Source: Kineococcus endophyticus (GTDB lineage Bacteria; Actinomycetota; Actinomycetes; Actinomycetales; Kineococcaceae). From it: 64,000 bases of DNA. Of the stretch, positions 34,022 to 41,551 are shown piece by piece. Each line of letters opens with the position of its first letter. Position 1 is the stretch's first letter. Position numbers and translations under genes: made by a program. The stretch is taken from the NCBI RefSeq assembly GCF_040796495.1, contig NZ_JBFNQN010000002.1, positions 186,001-250,000 of the forward strand. The letters run 5' to 3'. The notes under the pieces were generated by a model that worked only from the letters and a program-made list of their open reading frames with translations, did no database searches and was not told where the DNA came from.

Positions 34022-34411
34022 TCACGTGCCCGCGACCCCGGGCCGGTGGGCCGGAGGTGCCGGGAGCTCCTCGCCCCACACCTCGACGAGCTCGGTCACG
34101 AGACCGTCCGCCACGCGCAGGAACGAAGCGACGTGGAACACCCCGTCGCCCCCGGACGCGGGGGTGACCCGTGCCCGCAGCACCGCGCGGTCACCGGAGG
34201 CGACGAGGTCGGTGACGGTGAACCGCCAGCCGCCGGGGTAGTCGCGGTTGAAGGCGACGAACTGCTCGCCCGTGAACGTCTCCCCGGTGTGGACCAGGGT
34301 CGCGGTGGACCCCGGCGCCAGGAGGGAGGCGAGGGAGGCCCAGTCGCGGTCGTCGACGGCGTCGGCGAAGGACCGGGCGACCCGTCCGGCTGCGCCCTCC
34401 TCGCCGCTCAC
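34022..34411 (-). CDS. SnoaL-like (NTF2-fold) protein coupled to gbcB
   Basis: The 129-residue product has the SnoaL/NTF2 pattern: an N-terminal helix pair (VARSFADAVDDRDWASLASLLAPG), FTGEQFVAFNRDYPGGWRFTVTDLVASGDRAVLRARV and ending FLRVADGLVTELVEVWGE. GTG at 34411 overlaps the gbcB stop (GTGA), so it is the last gene of the betaine operon. It could be an accessory or enzyme subunit; the role is unknown. Confidence 0.75.
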   Translation of the reverse strand: MSGEEGAAGRVARSFADAVDDRDWASLASLLAPGSTATLVHTGETFTGEQFVAFNRDYPGGWRFTVTDLVASGDRAVLRARVTPASGGDGVFHVASFLRVADGLVTELVEVWGEELPAPPAHRPGVAGT

Positions 34412-35538
34412 GCGTCGATGGCCACGTCGCCCAGGGGCCGGCTGCAGCAGATGAGGACCTTGCCCGCCGCGATCTCCCGCGGGCGGATGCCGCCGTTGTG
34501 CTGCATGTCGACCTCGCCGGTCAGGAGCACCGTCTTGCACGTGCCGCACATGCCCTGGCTGCAGGAGCTCGGCGGGGACATCCCGGCACGGAACGCCGCG
34601 TCGAGGATGAACTCGTCCGGGGCGCAGGGGAAGGTGCGGCCGGACTTCGCCATCGAGATCGTGAACGTCCCCGCGTCCGCCCCCGCCGGGACGTCCGCCC
34701 CGATCGACCCCACGTCGACGGGGTCGGTGTCGGCGAAGGCCGCCTGCGGCAGTGCCTCGAAGGTGAACGTCTCCTCGTGGTGGTGGGCGAGGTCGAACTC
34801 CAGCTCGCCGAGGATCTCCCGGACCGTGGCCATGTAGCCGTCGGGGCCGCAGACGAACACCTCGCGGTCGTGCAGGTCCGGGGCGATCTCCCGCAAGGCC
34901 TCGCGCGTCAGCCGACCCTTCCAGCCCCACCACTCCTGGCCGGGGCTGTCCTGGCTGCAGACCTGCACCACGTTGACCGTCGGGAACTGGGTGGGCAGCC
35001 CGAGCAGTTCGGGCCGGAAGATGATGTCCGCCGGGCTGTGCGCGGAGTGGACGAAGACCACGTCGACGTCGGACCCCAGGTCGACGAGGGTGCGCGTCAT
35101 CGAGATGAGCGGCGTGATGCCCGACCCCGCGGAGAGGAACAGGTACTTGCGCGCGGGGTGGTGGACCATGCTGAACGCCCCGAGCGGCGGGGCCGCCGAC
35201 ACCCGGTCCCCCACCGACAGGTGGTCGTGCAGCCAGTTCGAGACGAGTCCGCCGGGTTTGCGCTTCACCGTGATGGCCAGACGGTGCGGCCGGGTCGGCG
35301 GGGAGGAGATCGTGTAGGAACGCTGGAGGCGCTGCCCGTCGACGTCCAGGTGCAGGGTGATGAACTGCCCCGGGTCGAAGTGGAAGACCTGCGGGCCGAC
35401 CGGCTCGAACCAGAACGTCTTGACGTCGTGGGTGATCTCCCGGACCCCGCCGCAGACGAGTTCGGCGACGTCGACGTCGTCGCCCCAGGCCGTGATCTCG
35501 CCGGGGTGCGGGACGCCCTGCGTCTCGGTGACCGTCAC
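34408..35538 (-). CDS. gbcB: Glycine betaine monooxygenase reductase subunit (ferredoxin reductase type)
   Basis: The 376-residue product carries electrons from NAD(P)H to the Rieske oxygenase. It has an FAD domain (RLQRSYTISSPPT), an NAD-binding domain (YLFLSAGSGITPLISM, VFVCGPDGYM) and a C-terminal plant-type [2Fe-2S] domain (SSCSQGMCGTCKTVLLTG plus a later Cys in LICCSRP), the GbcB order. GTG at 35538 overlaps the gbcA stop. The assignment to betaine rather than another quaternary amine rests on neighbouring gbcA and BCCT genes. Confidence 0.85.
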   Translation of the reverse strand: MTVTETQGVPHPGEITAWGDDVDVAELVCGGVREITHDVKTFWFEPVGPQVFHFDPGQFITLHLDVDGQRLQRSYTISSPPTRPHRLAITVKRKPGGLVSNWLHDHLSVGDRVSAAPPLGAFSMVHHPARKYLFLSAGSGITPLISMTRTLVDLGSDVDVVFVHSAHSPADIIFRPELLGLPTQFPTVNVVQVCSQDSPGQEWWGWKGRLTREALREIAPDLHDREVFVCGPDGYMATVREILGELEFDLAHHHEETFTFEALPQAAFADTDPVDVGSIGADVPAGADAGTFTISMAKSGRTFPCAPDEFILDAAFRAGMSPPSSCSQGMCGTCKTVLLTGEVDMQHNGGIRPREIAAGKVLICCSRPLGDVAIDA

Positions 35539-36818
35539 GCGATCGCCTCGAGCAGCCGCGTCACGTACCAGTTCACGAACGCCTCGACGTCGTCCTCGAC
35601 CATCGAGTACGGCCCCGGCACGTACCCGGGGTTCGCGCAGCCGACCTGCGTCCCGGCGACCAGCGCCCGGTCCTGGTCGTTGGTGGCGCGCCACACCATC
35701 GTCAGCGCGTCGAGGTCGTAGTCGACGCCCTCGACCGCGTCCGGGTGGACGAGCCACGTCGTGCGCAGCGTGCTCGTGCCCGTCGAGGTCGGCAGCACGG
35801 AGAACACCACGGCGTGGTCGGACAGCAGGTGGAACCAGGAGTTCGGCTGCATGTGCAGCGAGAGGTCCCCGAAGGCGGCGTCCTGCACGGACCCCAGCAG
35901 CTTCGTGCAGACCGCGGCGCCGTTCGGGGCGAAGGACTTTCCCTCCCCGTCCAGGGGCAGGTGCGAGAGCTGGAAACCCACCTGGCGCGTGTCCAGTTCG
36001 CGGTGGTCGCGCAGCGGCAGGCCGTGGTCGGCCCGCACCTTCGCCAGCGCGTCGGCCGCCTTGACGTAGCGGTCGTACAGCGGCTTCAGGCGGGGGGTGA
36101 TGTCCTCGGCCTCGTAGGCGAAGAGGGGGAAGTACGCCGTGATGAGTTCGGGGTGCCCGTCGCAGTGGTAGCACTCGCGGTTGTTCTCCATGACGAGCTT
36201 CCAGTTGCCCGCCTCCTGCAGGTCGTACGTCACGGCGACCTTGGCGCGGTCCAGCTCGTACGGCCGCAGGTGGGGTTCGAGGACCTCCGCCACGGCGTCG
36301 AAGTCCTCGGGCGCGTCCTGGGCCAGGCAGATGAACACCAGGCCGGCGAGGTTGCGGACGTGCACCGACCGCAGCGAGAAGCAGGACTTGTCGAACGTCG
36401 CCGGCTGCGACTCGGCGAACAGCAGCTTGCCGTCCACCCCGTACGTCCACCGGTGGTACGGGCAGACGATGTTCCCGACCGACCCCTGCCGCTCCGGCAG
36501 CAACCGCGACCCCCGGTGGCGGCACACGTTGTGGAACGCCTGCACCTGCTCGTCGTCGTCGCGGACCACGATCACCGACCAGTCGCCCACCTCGACGGTG
36601 ACGAAGTCCCCGGGTTCGGGCAGTTCGGCCGCCGCGGCGACGAAGATCCAGTTCCGCCCGAACACGACGTCGAGGTCGCGTTCGTACACCTCCTGCGAGG
36701 TGTAGAAGGGCGCCTCCAGGCTCATGCCCGGGACGCGACGGCGCACCAGCTCGTCGACGTCCTCCGGGGTCTGCTGGACCCCCGGAGCGCTGCGGGGGGC
36801 GACGGTGTGAGCGGTCAT
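35535..36818 (-). CDS. gbcA: Glycine betaine monooxygenase, Rieske oxygenase subunit
   Basis: The 427-residue oxygenase removes a methyl group from glycine betaine to give dimethylglycine and formaldehyde. The Rieske centre is C99-x-H101 and C119-x2-H122 (NVCRHRGS, CPYHRWTY). The catalytic iron site follows near NNRECYHCDGHPEL. ATG at 36818 has GAGGGAG upstream. Two 17-bp palindrome-like operators lie 40-75 bases before it. Related Rieske proteins demethylate stachydrine or carnitine, so the substrate is likely but not proven. Confidence 0.84.
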   Translation of the reverse strand: MTAHTVAPRSAPGVQQTPEDVDELVRRRVPGMSLEAPFYTSQEVYERDLDVVFGRNWIFVAAAAELPEPGDFVTVEVGDWSVIVVRDDDEQVQAFHNVCRHRGSRLLPERQGSVGNIVCPYHRWTYGVDGKLLFAESQPATFDKSCFSLRSVHVRNLAGLVFICLAQDAPEDFDAVAEVLEPHLRPYELDRAKVAVTYDLQEAGNWKLVMENNRECYHCDGHPELITAYFPLFAYEAEDITPRLKPLYDRYVKAADALAKVRADHGLPLRDHRELDTRQVGFQLSHLPLDGEGKSFAPNGAAVCTKLLGSVQDAAFGDLSLHMQPNSWFHLLSDHAVVFSVLPTSTGTSTLRTTWLVHPDAVEGVDYDLDALTMVWRATNDQDRALVAGTQVGCANPGYVPGPYSMVEDDVEAFVNWYVTRLLEAIA

Positions 36819-36857
36819 GCTGCGCTCCCTCTCGAGGAGTTCGGTCCTGGCCGGTCC

Positions 36858-36893
36858 GTTCCGCATCACGGAACAGGTGCCTCATCGCGGAAC
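36858..36893. promoter_or_regulatory. Paired 17-bp operators upstream of gbcA
   Basis: GTTCCGCATCACGGAAC (36858-36874, a perfect 6+5+6 inverted repeat) and GTGCCTCATCGCGGAAC (36877-36893) start 19 bp apart. A related pair with the same 19-bp period lies between the BCCT and ferredoxin genes (38659-38694). They probably bind one regulator of the betaine block. Confidence 0.7.
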
Positions 36894-36996
36894 GAGTCTG
36901 GGACCGCGGAGAAGGCCGTGTCAAGCAACGCGCGGGGCGCCGCGGCCGGCCGCCGGGAGACGGCCGATCACAGCGCCCCGCAACGCCTTGCGAGCG

Positions 36997-38586
36997 TCAG
37001 TCGTCGACCGTGACCGGCGCCTTGGACACGTCCACCTGCACCGGTCGCGGGCTCACCGGACGCATGAGGCGGTCGGACCGGATGTCCTTGGTGATGGCGA
37101 TGCACAAGGCCACCATGACGACGAGGAACGGGGTCGCGGCGATGATCGTGACGTTCTGCAGCGCCTGCAGGCCGCCGGCGTAGAGCAGGACCACGGCCAC
37201 CGCACCGGTGAGCACACCCCACAGGGCGGTCAGCCAGCGCCGGGGTTCGTCGTCGCCGTGGCTCGACAGGGACGCCATGACGATGCTCGCCGCGTCGGCG
37301 CCCGAGACGAAGAAGATGGCGACGAGGACGACCACGAGCACGGAGGTGACGCCGGCCAGGGGGAACTGCTGGAGCAGCGTGAACATCTGGGTGTTCTGGT
37401 CCGGGCTGGCCAGGACGTCCAGCGCCCCGGTGAGCTGCTCGTGGATCGCGGTGCCGCCGAAGACGGAGAACCACACGAGGGAGACGAGGGTCGGGATGAG
37501 CATGACGCCCACCACGAACTCGCGGATGGTCCGGCCGCGGGAGATCTTCGCCAGGAACGCGCCGACGAAGGGCGTCCAGGAGATCCACCACGCCCAGTAG
37601 AAGATGGTCCAGCCCGACAGCCACTCCGAGCCGCCGTAGGCGCCGGTGCGCACCGACATCTCCGGCAGGTGGGCCAGGTAGTTCCCCGCGGCGTTCGGCA
37701 TCAGGTCGAGGATGAACACCGTCGGGCCGACGACGAACAGGAACAGCAGCAGGACCCCGGCGAGCACCATGTTCGTGTTCGAGAGGATCTTCACGCCGCG
37801 CTCGATGCCGCTGATGGCCGAGACCACGAAGCACAGCGTGAGGACGGCGATGATGCCGACCTGCCAGCCCGTGCCGCTGCCGGCACCGAACACCTGCGAC
37901 AGGCCGCCGTTGATCTGCGCGGCCCCCAGGCCCAGGCTCACGGCCGAGCCGAAGATCGTCGCGAAGATGGCCAGGACGTCGATGGCGCGGGCGGCCCCGG
38001 CCCCACGGGGTCCGCGCAGCAGGGGCGCGAAGGCGGCCGAGAAACCTCCGGACCTCCCCTTGCGGTAGCTGGAGTAGGCCAGGGCCAGACCCACCACCGC
38101 GTAGATGGCCCACGGGTGCAGGCCCCAGTGGAACAGCGCGTAGTTCATCGCCTCACCGGCGGCGGCGTCCGTGCCGGGCTCGGTGCCCGCCTCCGGCGGC
38201 GTCATGAGGTGCGTCACCGGCTCGGTGACGCCGTAGAACATCAGGCCGATGCCCATGCCCGCCGAGAACATCATGGCGATCCAGGACGCCCGGGAGTGCT
38301 CGGGCCGCTCGTCGTCGGCCCCGAGGCGGATGCGACCCACGCGGCTGAACGCCAGGACGAGCGCGAACACCACGAAACCCGTCGCCCCGAGGACGAACGC
38401 CCAGCCGAGGTTGCCGGTGATCCAGGACAGCGCCGTCCCCGTGCCCGAGGCCAGCCGGCCGGGGACGACCACCCCGACCGCGAGGAGGACGGCCACGACC
38501 ACCAGGGAGGCGGCCAGCACCGGGACGTCCAGCGGTCTTCTCCGCCTGTTCTCCGCACGCTCTTCGTCGATCTCCTGCTCGATCAC
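36997..38586 (-). CDS. BCCT-family betaine/carnitine/choline transporter
   Basis: The 529-residue product has about 12 helices and BCCT hallmarks: MMFSAGMGIGLMFYGVTEPVTH, the aromatic signature segment GWTIFYWAWWISWTPFVGAFLAKISRGRTIREF (helix 8 region, with the Trp cage) and a late SGADAASIVMASLSS. It imports betaine or a related trimethylammonium solute with sodium or protons. GTG at 38586 follows GGAGAGGACC. It lies upstream of gbcA on the same strand, 178 bp away, with its own promoter region divergent from the ferredoxin gene. Confidence 0.94.
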   Translation of the reverse strand: MIEQEIDEERAENRRRRPLDVPVLAASLVVVAVLLAVGVVVPGRLASGTGTALSWITGNLGWAFVLGATGFVVFALVLAFSRVGRIRLGADDERPEHSRASWIAMMFSAGMGIGLMFYGVTEPVTHLMTPPEAGTEPGTDAAAGEAMNYALFHWGLHPWAIYAVVGLALAYSSYRKGRSGGFSAAFAPLLRGPRGAGAARAIDVLAIFATIFGSAVSLGLGAAQINGGLSQVFGAGSGTGWQVGIIAVLTLCFVVSAISGIERGVKILSNTNMVLAGVLLLFLFVVGPTVFILDLMPNAAGNYLAHLPEMSVRTGAYGGSEWLSGWTIFYWAWWISWTPFVGAFLAKISRGRTIREFVVGVMLIPTLVSLVWFSVFGGTAIHEQLTGALDVLASPDQNTQMFTLLQQFPLAGVTSVLVVVLVAIFFVSGADAASIVMASLSSHGDDEPRRWLTALWGVLTGAVAVVLLYAGGLQALQNVTIIAATPFLVVMVALCIAITKDIRSDRLMRPVSPRPVQVDVSKAPVTVDD

Positions 38587-38658
38587 GAGAGGTCCTCTCC
38601 GGAGGGGGTGCCGAGCACCCGGTGGGTGGGAGTGACGCTGTGGCACGGTAGTGCGGTT

Positions 38659-38694
38659 GTTGCGCGATGAGCAACGAGTTCACCAGAACGCAAC
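38659..38694. promoter_or_regulatory. Operator pair between the BCCT and ferredoxin genes
   Basis: GTTGCGCGATGAGCAAC (38659-38675), read on the minus strand, matches the second gbcA site at 14 of 17 positions. A weaker copy, GTTCACCAGAACGCAAC, starts 19 bp further at 38678. The 19-bp spacing equals that at gbcA. The pair sits between divergent BCCT and Rieske ferredoxin genes. Confidence 0.6.
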
Positions 38695-38815
38695 AGAGCG
38701 GGAACACTCGCGGAACACCGGCCCGCCGGGGCGGCGACCCCAGGACGGTGGGAGCATCCCGGGGACGGTCCACGGGACCCGGACGACGGAGCGGCGCACA
38801 GGAGGACGAAGGACC

Positions 38816-39154
38816 ATGGCGACGGGAACACGGATCGTGGCGTGCCCGGTGGCGGACCTGCCGCCGGGTGAAGTGGTGCGGGTGGACCGCCCCGAGCTCA
38901 GGGCGCCGGTCTCGGTGTTCAACGTCGAGGGCGAGTTCTTCGCGATCGACGACACCTGCACCCACGCCGACGAGTCCCTGGCGCAGGGCTGGGTGGAGGA
39001 CTGCGCCGTGGAGTGCCCCCGGCACGCCTCGGCGTTCGACCTGCGCACCGGAGTCCCGTCCAGCCCGCCGGCCCTCACGCCGGTGCGGACGCACCTGGTC
39101 GAGGTCGTCGACGGGGACGTGGTCGTCGAGGTGGGCACACCCCGACCCGCCTGA
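38816..39154 (+). CDS. Rieske-type [2Fe-2S] ferredoxin
   Basis: The 112-residue product is a small Rieske ferredoxin like those that feed multi-component oxygenases. The cluster ligands are C48-x-H50 and C67-x2-H70 ([23 protein letters not shown]). ATG at 38816 follows GGAGGACGAAGG. It is divergent from the BCCT gene and may donate electrons to GbcA or a later demethylation step; GbcB already carries its own ferredoxin domain, so its role is open. Confidence 0.9.
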
Positions 39155-39203: not shown

Positions 39204-39217
39204 ACTGATATACCAGT
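39204..39217. promoter_or_regulatory. Near-palindrome of GntR/FCD type upstream of nhaA
   Basis: ACTGATATACCAGT is symmetric except for one pair and matches the TGGTNTACCA pattern of FadR/VanR-type GntR regulators. It lies about 130 bases before nhaA. A similar site, TGGTGTACCA, lies before the GntR gene at 41.5 kb. Confidence 0.4.
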
Positions 39218-40669: not shown

Positions 40670-41443
40670 TCAGGCGCGCCAGCCGAGGGCGGCCGAGGCG
40701 CGGTCGGCGGCCGCCACCACGGCCGGCGTGATCTCGCACAGCCGGTCGGCGGTGAGGCGGTAGGACGGCCCCGACACGCTGAGCGCCGCCAGGACCTCGC
40801 CGTCGGCCCCCCGCACGGGGGCCGCGACGGCGTTGAGCCCGACCTCGAGCTCCTCCGTCGTGGTGGCGAACCCGTCGACGGCGATCTTGTCGAGCTGCTC
40901 CTCGAGGTCGCGACGTCGGGTCGTCGTCGCGTCCGTGTACCGGCGCAGCCGGCCGGCCGTGCCGGCCGCTCGCACCGGGGCGCAGAACGCCATGAGGACC
41001 TTGCCGCTGGACGTGGCGTGCAGGGGCGTGCGCTCCCCGATCCAGTTGTGCGTGACGACGGACGACGCGCCGCGGACCTGGTCGACGTTGAGCGCCGCGT
41101 CGCCGTCGGCGAGGGCGATGTTCACCGTCTCCCCGGTCGTCGCCGCGAGCTCCTCGCAGGCCGCCCGCGAGCGCCGCGTGACGTCGAGCTGGTCGGTCAC
41201 GGCGCCGGCGAGCCGGACGACGGCCATGCCGAGGCGGTACTTGCCGCGGTCGCCGACCTGCTCGACCAGTCCGCGCGCCTCCAGGGCCGTGACGAGGCGG
41301 AAGGCGGTCGACTTGTGGACCTCGAGCCGCTGGGCGATCTCGGTGACGCCGCCCTCCCCGAGCTCGGCGAGGACCTCCAGGACCGTCACGGCCCGGTCGA
41401 CGGACTGCACCGGGGAGGTGCGCGCGTCGGGGGTGCCGGTCAT
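40670..41443 (-). CDS. IclR-family transcriptional regulator
   Basis: The 257-residue product has the IclR HTH (SVDRAVTVLEVLAELGEGGVTEIAQRLEVHKSTAFRLVTALEARGLVEQ) and the C-terminal ligand domain (NWIGERTPLHATSSGKVLMAF, GVNAVAAPVRG-like GLNAVAAPVRGADGEVLAALSVSGP). IclR proteins often control catabolic operons, and this is a candidate for the 17-bp sites near gbcA. It converges with nhaA and is divergent from gntR. Confidence 0.92.
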   Translation of the reverse strand: MTGTPDARTSPVQSVDRAVTVLEVLAELGEGGVTEIAQRLEVHKSTAFRLVTALEARGLVEQVGDRGKYRLGMAVVRLAGAVTDQLDVTRRSRAACEELAATTGETVNIALADGDAALNVDQVRGASSVVTHNWIGERTPLHATSSGKVLMAFCAPVRAAGTAGRLRRYTDATTTRRRDLEEQLDKIAVDGFATTTEELEVGLNAVAAPVRGADGEVLAALSVSGPSYRLTADRLCEITPAVVAAADRASAALGWRA

Positions 41444-41520
41444 GGCGTCATGGTGTCAGGGTGTCCGCGCCCGTCGGGCCGGGGCGTGCCCGGTACCCGC
41501 CCCGGACCCTGCACCGGGAC

Positions 41521-41530
41521 TGGTGTACCA
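41521..41530. promoter_or_regulatory. GntR/FCD-type operator upstream of gntR
   Basis: TGGTGTACCA lies 21 bases before the GntR start, an ideal autoregulatory position. It agrees with the TGGTNNACCA pattern known for FCD-type GntR proteins. Confidence 0.5.
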
Positions 41531-41551
41531 GACGACGCGTAGGGTGAGGCC

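Follow-up and report, generated by a model that had tools for sequence, protein, structure and literature searches.

Two promoters of the betaine block each carry a tandem pair of 17-bp palindromes, one pair before gbcA and the other before the BCCT transporter gene; three of the four palindromes are similar and the fourth is weaker. Comparison with related genomes suggests that these are IclR-family operators, most likely bound by the nearby regulator IclR-1, which would co-ordinate betaine import through BCCT with the first demethylation (gbcA, with gbcB behind it). The probability of this reading is put at roughly 0.7. Glycine betaine is widespread as an osmolyte and also serves as a source of carbon and nitrogen.

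The window, i.e. the whole 64,000-nucleotide stretch that was analysed, has a GC content of 74% and comes from contig C2; the genome (G000) measures 5.04 Mb. Features are collected in Table 1. The gbcA, gbcB and betaine BCCT models are the best named matches of the three genes, all with scores below the equivalog cut-offs, and the betaine substrate of the gbcA-like gene is therefore putative. The closest named gbcA loci are those of Quadrisphaera and Pseudokineococcus (72-77%). The ferredoxin passes the phenylpropionate-dioxygenase ferredoxin model (154 bits, cut-off 113), and NhaA, SoxB, PurU and SHMT reach their model cut-offs. A protein with DAO, FAO_M, GCV_T and GCV_T_C domains has no named model above cut-off; it is termed dimethylglycine dehydrogenase-like here, a putative label assigned in this analysis from the domains. 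Its gene is found on contig C16, as are soxB, purU and the SHMT gene glyA. The best operator match in this dmg/sox cluster, GTTCCACATCATCGAAC (L264), falls inside soxB.

Table 1. Genes, operators and putative promoter elements of the betaine block
Feature	Position	Strand	Remarks
gbcB-like reductase	34408..35484	-	start approximate; NF058606 GbcB 342.3 bits, cut-off 500
gbcA-like Rieske oxygenase	35535..36818	-	NF058607 GbcA 402.5 bits over residues 31-443 of 444-aa ORF, equivalog cut-off 670; Rieske and Ring_hydroxyl_A domains
Operator gbcA-1, GTTCCGCATCACGGAAC	36858..36874	+	C-class; pair member closer to gbcA start; same in G006
Operator gbcA-2, GTGCCTCATCGCGGAAC	36877..36893	+	in tandem with gbcA-1, 19 bp apart; 1 nt past -10; same in G006
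Putative gbcA -10, CAGACT	36895..36900	-	aligned in G000, G006, G001 and G008
Putative gbcA -35, TTGACA	36919..36924	-	18-nt spacer; aligned in G000, G006, G001 and G008
BCCT transporter	36997..38586	-	PF02028; start set by comparison with relatives; above cut-off of general model TIGR00842; betaine_BCCT model 575, cut-off 650
Putative BCCT -10, TACCGT	38645..38650	-	exactly 8 nt past operator BCCT-1
Operator BCCT-1, GTTGCTCATCGCGCAAC	38659..38675	-	G-class; overlaps inferred BCCT -35
Operator BCCT-2, GTTGCGTTCTGGTGAAC	38678..38694	-	weaker tandem partner, 19 bp
Upstream GTTYC box, GTTCCG	38711..38716	-	possible third half-site
Second palindrome, CTGATATACCAG	39205-39216		between ferredoxin and nhaA
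IclR-1	40670..41443	-	HTH_IclR 2.1e-16, IclR_C 1.1e-37, both above gathering scores; proposed reader
Second palindrome, CTGGTGTACCAG	41520-41531		GntR promoter; present in G000, G006 and G005

Operator pairs

An earlier note on this DNA had described one operator pair repeated at two promoters, with a common 19-bp spacing and a weaker copy between the BCCT and ferredoxin genes. All of its sequences were found, and in both window pairs the two palindromes start 19 bp apart. The common spacing does not extend to the relatives G001 and G008, where the gbcA pair is spaced by 18. The weak BCCT partner is genuine: in all five same-genus genomes that have gbcA, its arms, GTTnC...GTGAAC, are kept upstream of the strong BCCT site at a distance of exactly 19 bp.

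Could such repeats have arisen by chance? The motif search suggested in that note shows that the consensus has three exact matches in the genome, all of them in the window; no other site has a single mismatch and many have two or three. With up to three mismatches there are 460 matches genome-wide vs 309 for the reversed control, so that only the strict consensus is informative. In the window, three matches with at most one mismatch compare with 0.02 expected, and none of 100 shuffles reaches three, a test that is partly circular because the consensus was derived from these same sites. The looser pattern GTTNCN7GNAAC has two matches vs 0.24 expected, and one shuffle of 100 reaches two. Chance repeats as a source of the 17-mers are rejected on the genome-wide, window and shuffle counts.

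The sites are also of a known kind. Group 1 operators of the IclR family include a GTT-11-AAC subgroup with tandem sites at 18-22 nt, as given in the available text of Suvorova and Gelfand (2021; PMC8222616). The window sites resemble them as 17-bp palindromes of the form GTT...AAC, and their tandem spacing falls within 18-22 nt between centres (19 in the window pairs, 18 at gbcA of G001 and G008). When set against the group 1 pattern GTTYCRYW3RYGRAAC, the GTT...AAC arms fit two of the three strong sites, and the third begins with GTG. Some sites differ from the published pattern by having G/C, not Y/R, at positions 4/14; the BCCT site has G4 and C14. The main text of the paper, as available, makes no mention of betaine, choline or sarcosine.

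Orthologous promoters and extent of the regulon

Is the motif absent from orthologous promoters, an outcome that the earlier note would have counted against its proposal? The scan took in the window and 26 of 89 gbcA loci. A site with at least 14 of 17 matching positions lies within 500 bp upstream of gbcA in 11 of the 26 non-window loci: in seven of the eight from the family and its allies, and in four of the 18 elsewhere. The motif is thus present in nearby orthologous promoters, and is missing from gbcA of G005, the one exception among the eight, and from 14 of the 18 distant loci.

Uptake, demethylation and the divergent ferredoxin had been proposed to form one regulon. The motif joins BCCT and gbcA, and the comparisons support well the view that uptake and demethylation belong to one regulon. 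The inclusion of the ferredoxin is not supported, because the same BCCT operator pair persists in G001 and G008, where tblastn finds no ferredoxin homologue in the locus, and because the ferredoxin side of the BCCT-ferredoxin gap is poorly conserved. Both genomes, which have no ferredoxin there, carry the upstream GTTYC box as well.

A putative regulator

Which protein would read these sites? The nearby IclR protein, IclR-1, had been named as a candidate and is the best one: it is found in the same genus genomes as the motif, its class-wide relatives have operators at their genes, and the recognition helices agree at key residues. The assignment, comparative in nature, is a strong one.

Of 11 genus genomes, seven carry IclR-1; the strict motif is present in these same seven and absent from the remaining four. 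These co-occur also in G009 and G002, both of which are without a second regulator, IclR-2 (see below). The genus has 11 motif sites, ten of which belong to promoters of gbcA, BCCT or Rieske-type genes; one of these, in G002, lies close to the end of its contig, and its target is therefore taken from the similar region of G009. For the remaining site (G009:C46:44065), a reading of the ORFs in the surrounding 3 kb revealed no betaine gene, and the site may be a chance match. G018, which has IclR-2 and no close match to IclR-1, carries a site at gbcA/IclR-2, whereas the stretch upstream of its BCCT gene yielded none. The dimethylglycine dehydrogenase-like gene is present in the same seven of the 11 genomes, as is soxB. 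A soxB fragment with one stop occurs in G004 (L263, G004:C84:278-727), a genome without IclR-1, the dehydrogenase-like gene or the motif; it perhaps represents a decayed pathway.

In the class, GTTSCKCATNRCGSAAC occurs in 34 of 394 genomes (36 sites vs 5 for the reversed control). IclR-1-like genes (E <= 1e-45) are found in at least 74 of the 394, six candidates having been scored per genome so that counts are lower bounds. With this genome excluded, the motif is present in 20 of the 73 genomes where an IclR-1-like gene was found, vs 13 of the 320 others (Fisher p = 1.9e-8, a value that ignores relatedness, genome size and gene distance); the 13, and the other 53 of the 73, which have no exact motif in this 394-genome search, count against IclR-1 as the reader. 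Fifteen of the 34 exact motifs outside this genome are no more than 204 bp away from an IclR-1-like gene, three of them beyond its 3' end. Fully C-class motifs are present in four genomes of family f43 (G061, G079, G096 and G111; L178-L181) in which no IclR-1-like gene reaches E <= 1e-45, and another regulator may use the same operator there.

Gene neighbourhoods were inspected in 20 stretches, 13 chosen by hand for a motif close by and seven for the IclR match alone. Betaine/dimethylglycine/sarcosine-type genes, as judged by a tblastn homologue of at least one query pathway protein, are present in 17 of the 20, and as the stretches were hand-chosen, neither this count nor the start-codon counts given below represent an unbiased sample. 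L231, L235 and L245 have no tblastn homologue of the query proteins. Homologues of the dimethylglycine dehydrogenase-like protein are in 12 of the 20, a second Rieske oxygenase is in 10, and homologues of BCCT, PurU, SoxB and ferredoxin reductase are in fewer.

Many relatives of IclR-1 carry the operator at their own start. The subfamily was represented by 67 distinct proteins with an identity to IclR-1 of at least 42%; for 35 of them, a site with at least 10 of 11 key bases is no more than 260 bp upstream. In 30 of the 67, an in-frame ATG or GTG is at the same place inside the operator, and the first residues, often Met-Ser-Asn, are therefore set by the operator. In five the site is elsewhere, and 32 are without one; among the 32 are the seven IclR-1 genes of the genus, with no such site in their own promoters, a point against IclR-1 as the reader. 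Start-codon operators were seen in L233, L234, L235, L237, L239, L244 and further subfamily loci. The IclR family is known for a tendency of its sites to peak close to the start codon (PMC8222616).

Two further observations concern related proteins. In L239 (3192), L240 (12659) and L248 (13802), another IclR gene, 36-40% identical to IclR-1, has GTTCCACATCATGGAAC at its start; this gene adjoins one that resembles trimethylamine methyltransferase by its N-terminus. In the effector domain of IclR-1, residues N108 and W134 are shared by 99% and 91% of the 67 subfamily proteins vs 8% and 36% of 25 other IclR rows. These residues are candidates for effector specificity, as leads only.

Promoter geometry and mode of regulation

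A generic sigma-70 consensus scan of positions 36700-38900 found no promoter, and the promoter elements therefore rest on cross-species alignment. At gbcA, the TTGACA/CAGACT spacer is 17-18 nt across G000, G006, G001 and G008, and the operators begin 1 nt past CAGACT in all four genomes. Binding at this position should therefore block transcription. In seven of seven BCCT-type promoters compared, which include two Rieske-type promoters of G009 and G002, TANNNT is exactly 8 nt after the strong 17-mer; the strong operator would thus cover the -35 of BCCT. In all seven promoters a GTTYC box, which is GTTYCG in six, precedes the weak copy by 21-22 nt.

Two IclR-1 dimers would probably bind side by side, one on each palindrome. 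It is likely, from the placement of the sites, that IclR-1 is a repressor released by betaine or a breakdown product. Might it bind both pairs and activate instead, as BhcR does for its cluster? BhcR is the best NCBIfam match of both IclR-1 and IclR-2, i.e. the nearest named family. In Paracoccus denitrificans it serves the beta-hydroxyaspartate cycle, where the available text describes it as an activator beside a GntR-type repressor in C2 metabolism (PMC11323563), and the window has a similar IclR-GntR pair. BhcR differs, however, in activating other genes, and the IclR-1 score of 175.2 bits is below the NF045644 equivalog cut-off of 350. The location of the BCCT site at -35 also favours an activator, and activation at BCCT is possible. 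The gbcA operators, on the other hand, occupy a blocking position in 4/4 genomes, and the start-codon operators of relatives suggest repression at those genes. Activation at both pairs is thus rather unlikely.

Two operator classes and a possible change of regulator

IclR-2 is 44-49% identical to IclR-1, and its gene is oriented divergently to gbcA in G001, G008, G018, two Quadrisphaera and Pseudokineococcus. It is absent from G000, G005 and G006, where the only match at E <= 1e-40 is IclR-1 itself; the remaining IclR proteins of these three genomes do not exceed 38% identity, and those of G000 do not exceed 37% to IclR-1. IclR-2 represents one clade in a tree of 92 IclR proteins (100/100), with C-class sites (GTTCC...GGAAC) in five of six cases; the other subfamily clades of this tree, which carries a long-branch warning, have mostly G-class sites or none. 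The recognition helix is HKSTAFRL in 7/7 IclR-1 proteins and HKSTVFRL in two IclR-2 proteins of the genus, with HKAT, HKGT or HRAT in the other four.

The locus is found in three states. IclR-2 is between gbcA and BCCT in G001, G008, G018 and L038; it is absent and the C-class pair is retained at gbcA in G000 and G006; it is absent in G005, where gbcA has no site and is 27 bp behind BCCT. Between G000 and its sister species G006, the gbcA operators are identical in 34/34 bases and the rest of the gap in 94/144 (p = 3e-6), a comparison in which part of the flank aligns uncertainly. At BCCT, 30/34 operator bases are identical vs 141/191 outside (p = 0.049).

How might these states have originated? 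In the ancestor, IclR-2 at its place between gbcA and BCCT would have read C-class operators, and IclR-1 the G-class. The lineage of this genome would then have deleted IclR-2, and its operator pair would have been captured by IclR-1, which we infer took over the gbcA pair after the loss and now reads it. The sister species G005 would be further along, with gbcA under the IclR-1 operator of BCCT. The wider IclR-1 family would be a main regulator of the breakdown of betaine to glycine throughout the Actinomycetes, in many cases self-controlled via a start-codon operator. The whole of this reading, from the ancestral split through deletion, capture and the G005 step to the class-wide betaine role, stands at about even odds.

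Alternatively, IclR-1 may read the G-class BCCT pair only, and the C-class gbcA pair may be a relic of IclR-2 or be read by another paralogue. The absence of IclR-2 from G000, G005 and G006 is consistent with this, as is the tree, where C-class sites track the IclR-2 clade and not IclR-1. The class-wide motifs near IclR-1-like genes point the same way: 11 of the 15 are G-class in both halves, four are mixed and none is fully C-class. Identity of the gbcA pair in G000 and G006, where 50 of 144 other gap bases differ, is unexpected of a relic if the loss preceded the split, and the limited identity of the other IclR proteins of G000 to IclR-1 argues against another paralogue. A reading of the BCCT pair only is unlikely, and binding of both pairs by IclR-1 is preferred.

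A second palindrome

It is highly improbable that the GntR or Lrp protein, whose genes both adjoin IclR-1 in G000, G006 and G005, reads the 17-mers, as the 17-mer has the form of an IclR-type operator and the GntR promoter bears a different palindrome, CTGGTGTACCAG, in these three genomes. GntR was rejected as a reader, since it seems to have this palindrome as its own. On contig C16, CTGATATACCAG also precedes glyA-soxB by 29 bp (L264 15293-15304). CTGRTATAYCAG is at two places in this genome, between ferredoxin and nhaA and 29 bp upstream of glyA; it occurs twice in G006, once in G001 and not in the other genus genomes carrying IclR-1. The second palindrome is perhaps an operator of the neighbouring GntR, which would link nhaA to the sarcosine genes.

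Significance

GbdR of Pseudomonas belongs to the AraC family, and the protein and its site are of another kind than those of IclR-1. The two are alike in that GbdR controls betaine-related genes, being listed as a regulator in choline/betaine metabolism (PMC3572970). Searches of open-access papers listed no recognisable description of an IclR regulator of betaine breakdown in Actinobacteria. If the present reading is true, it would provide a regulator, an operator and a regulon for many unassigned IclR genes. A small set of living species would then represent successive stages of one regulator acquiring the operators of another.
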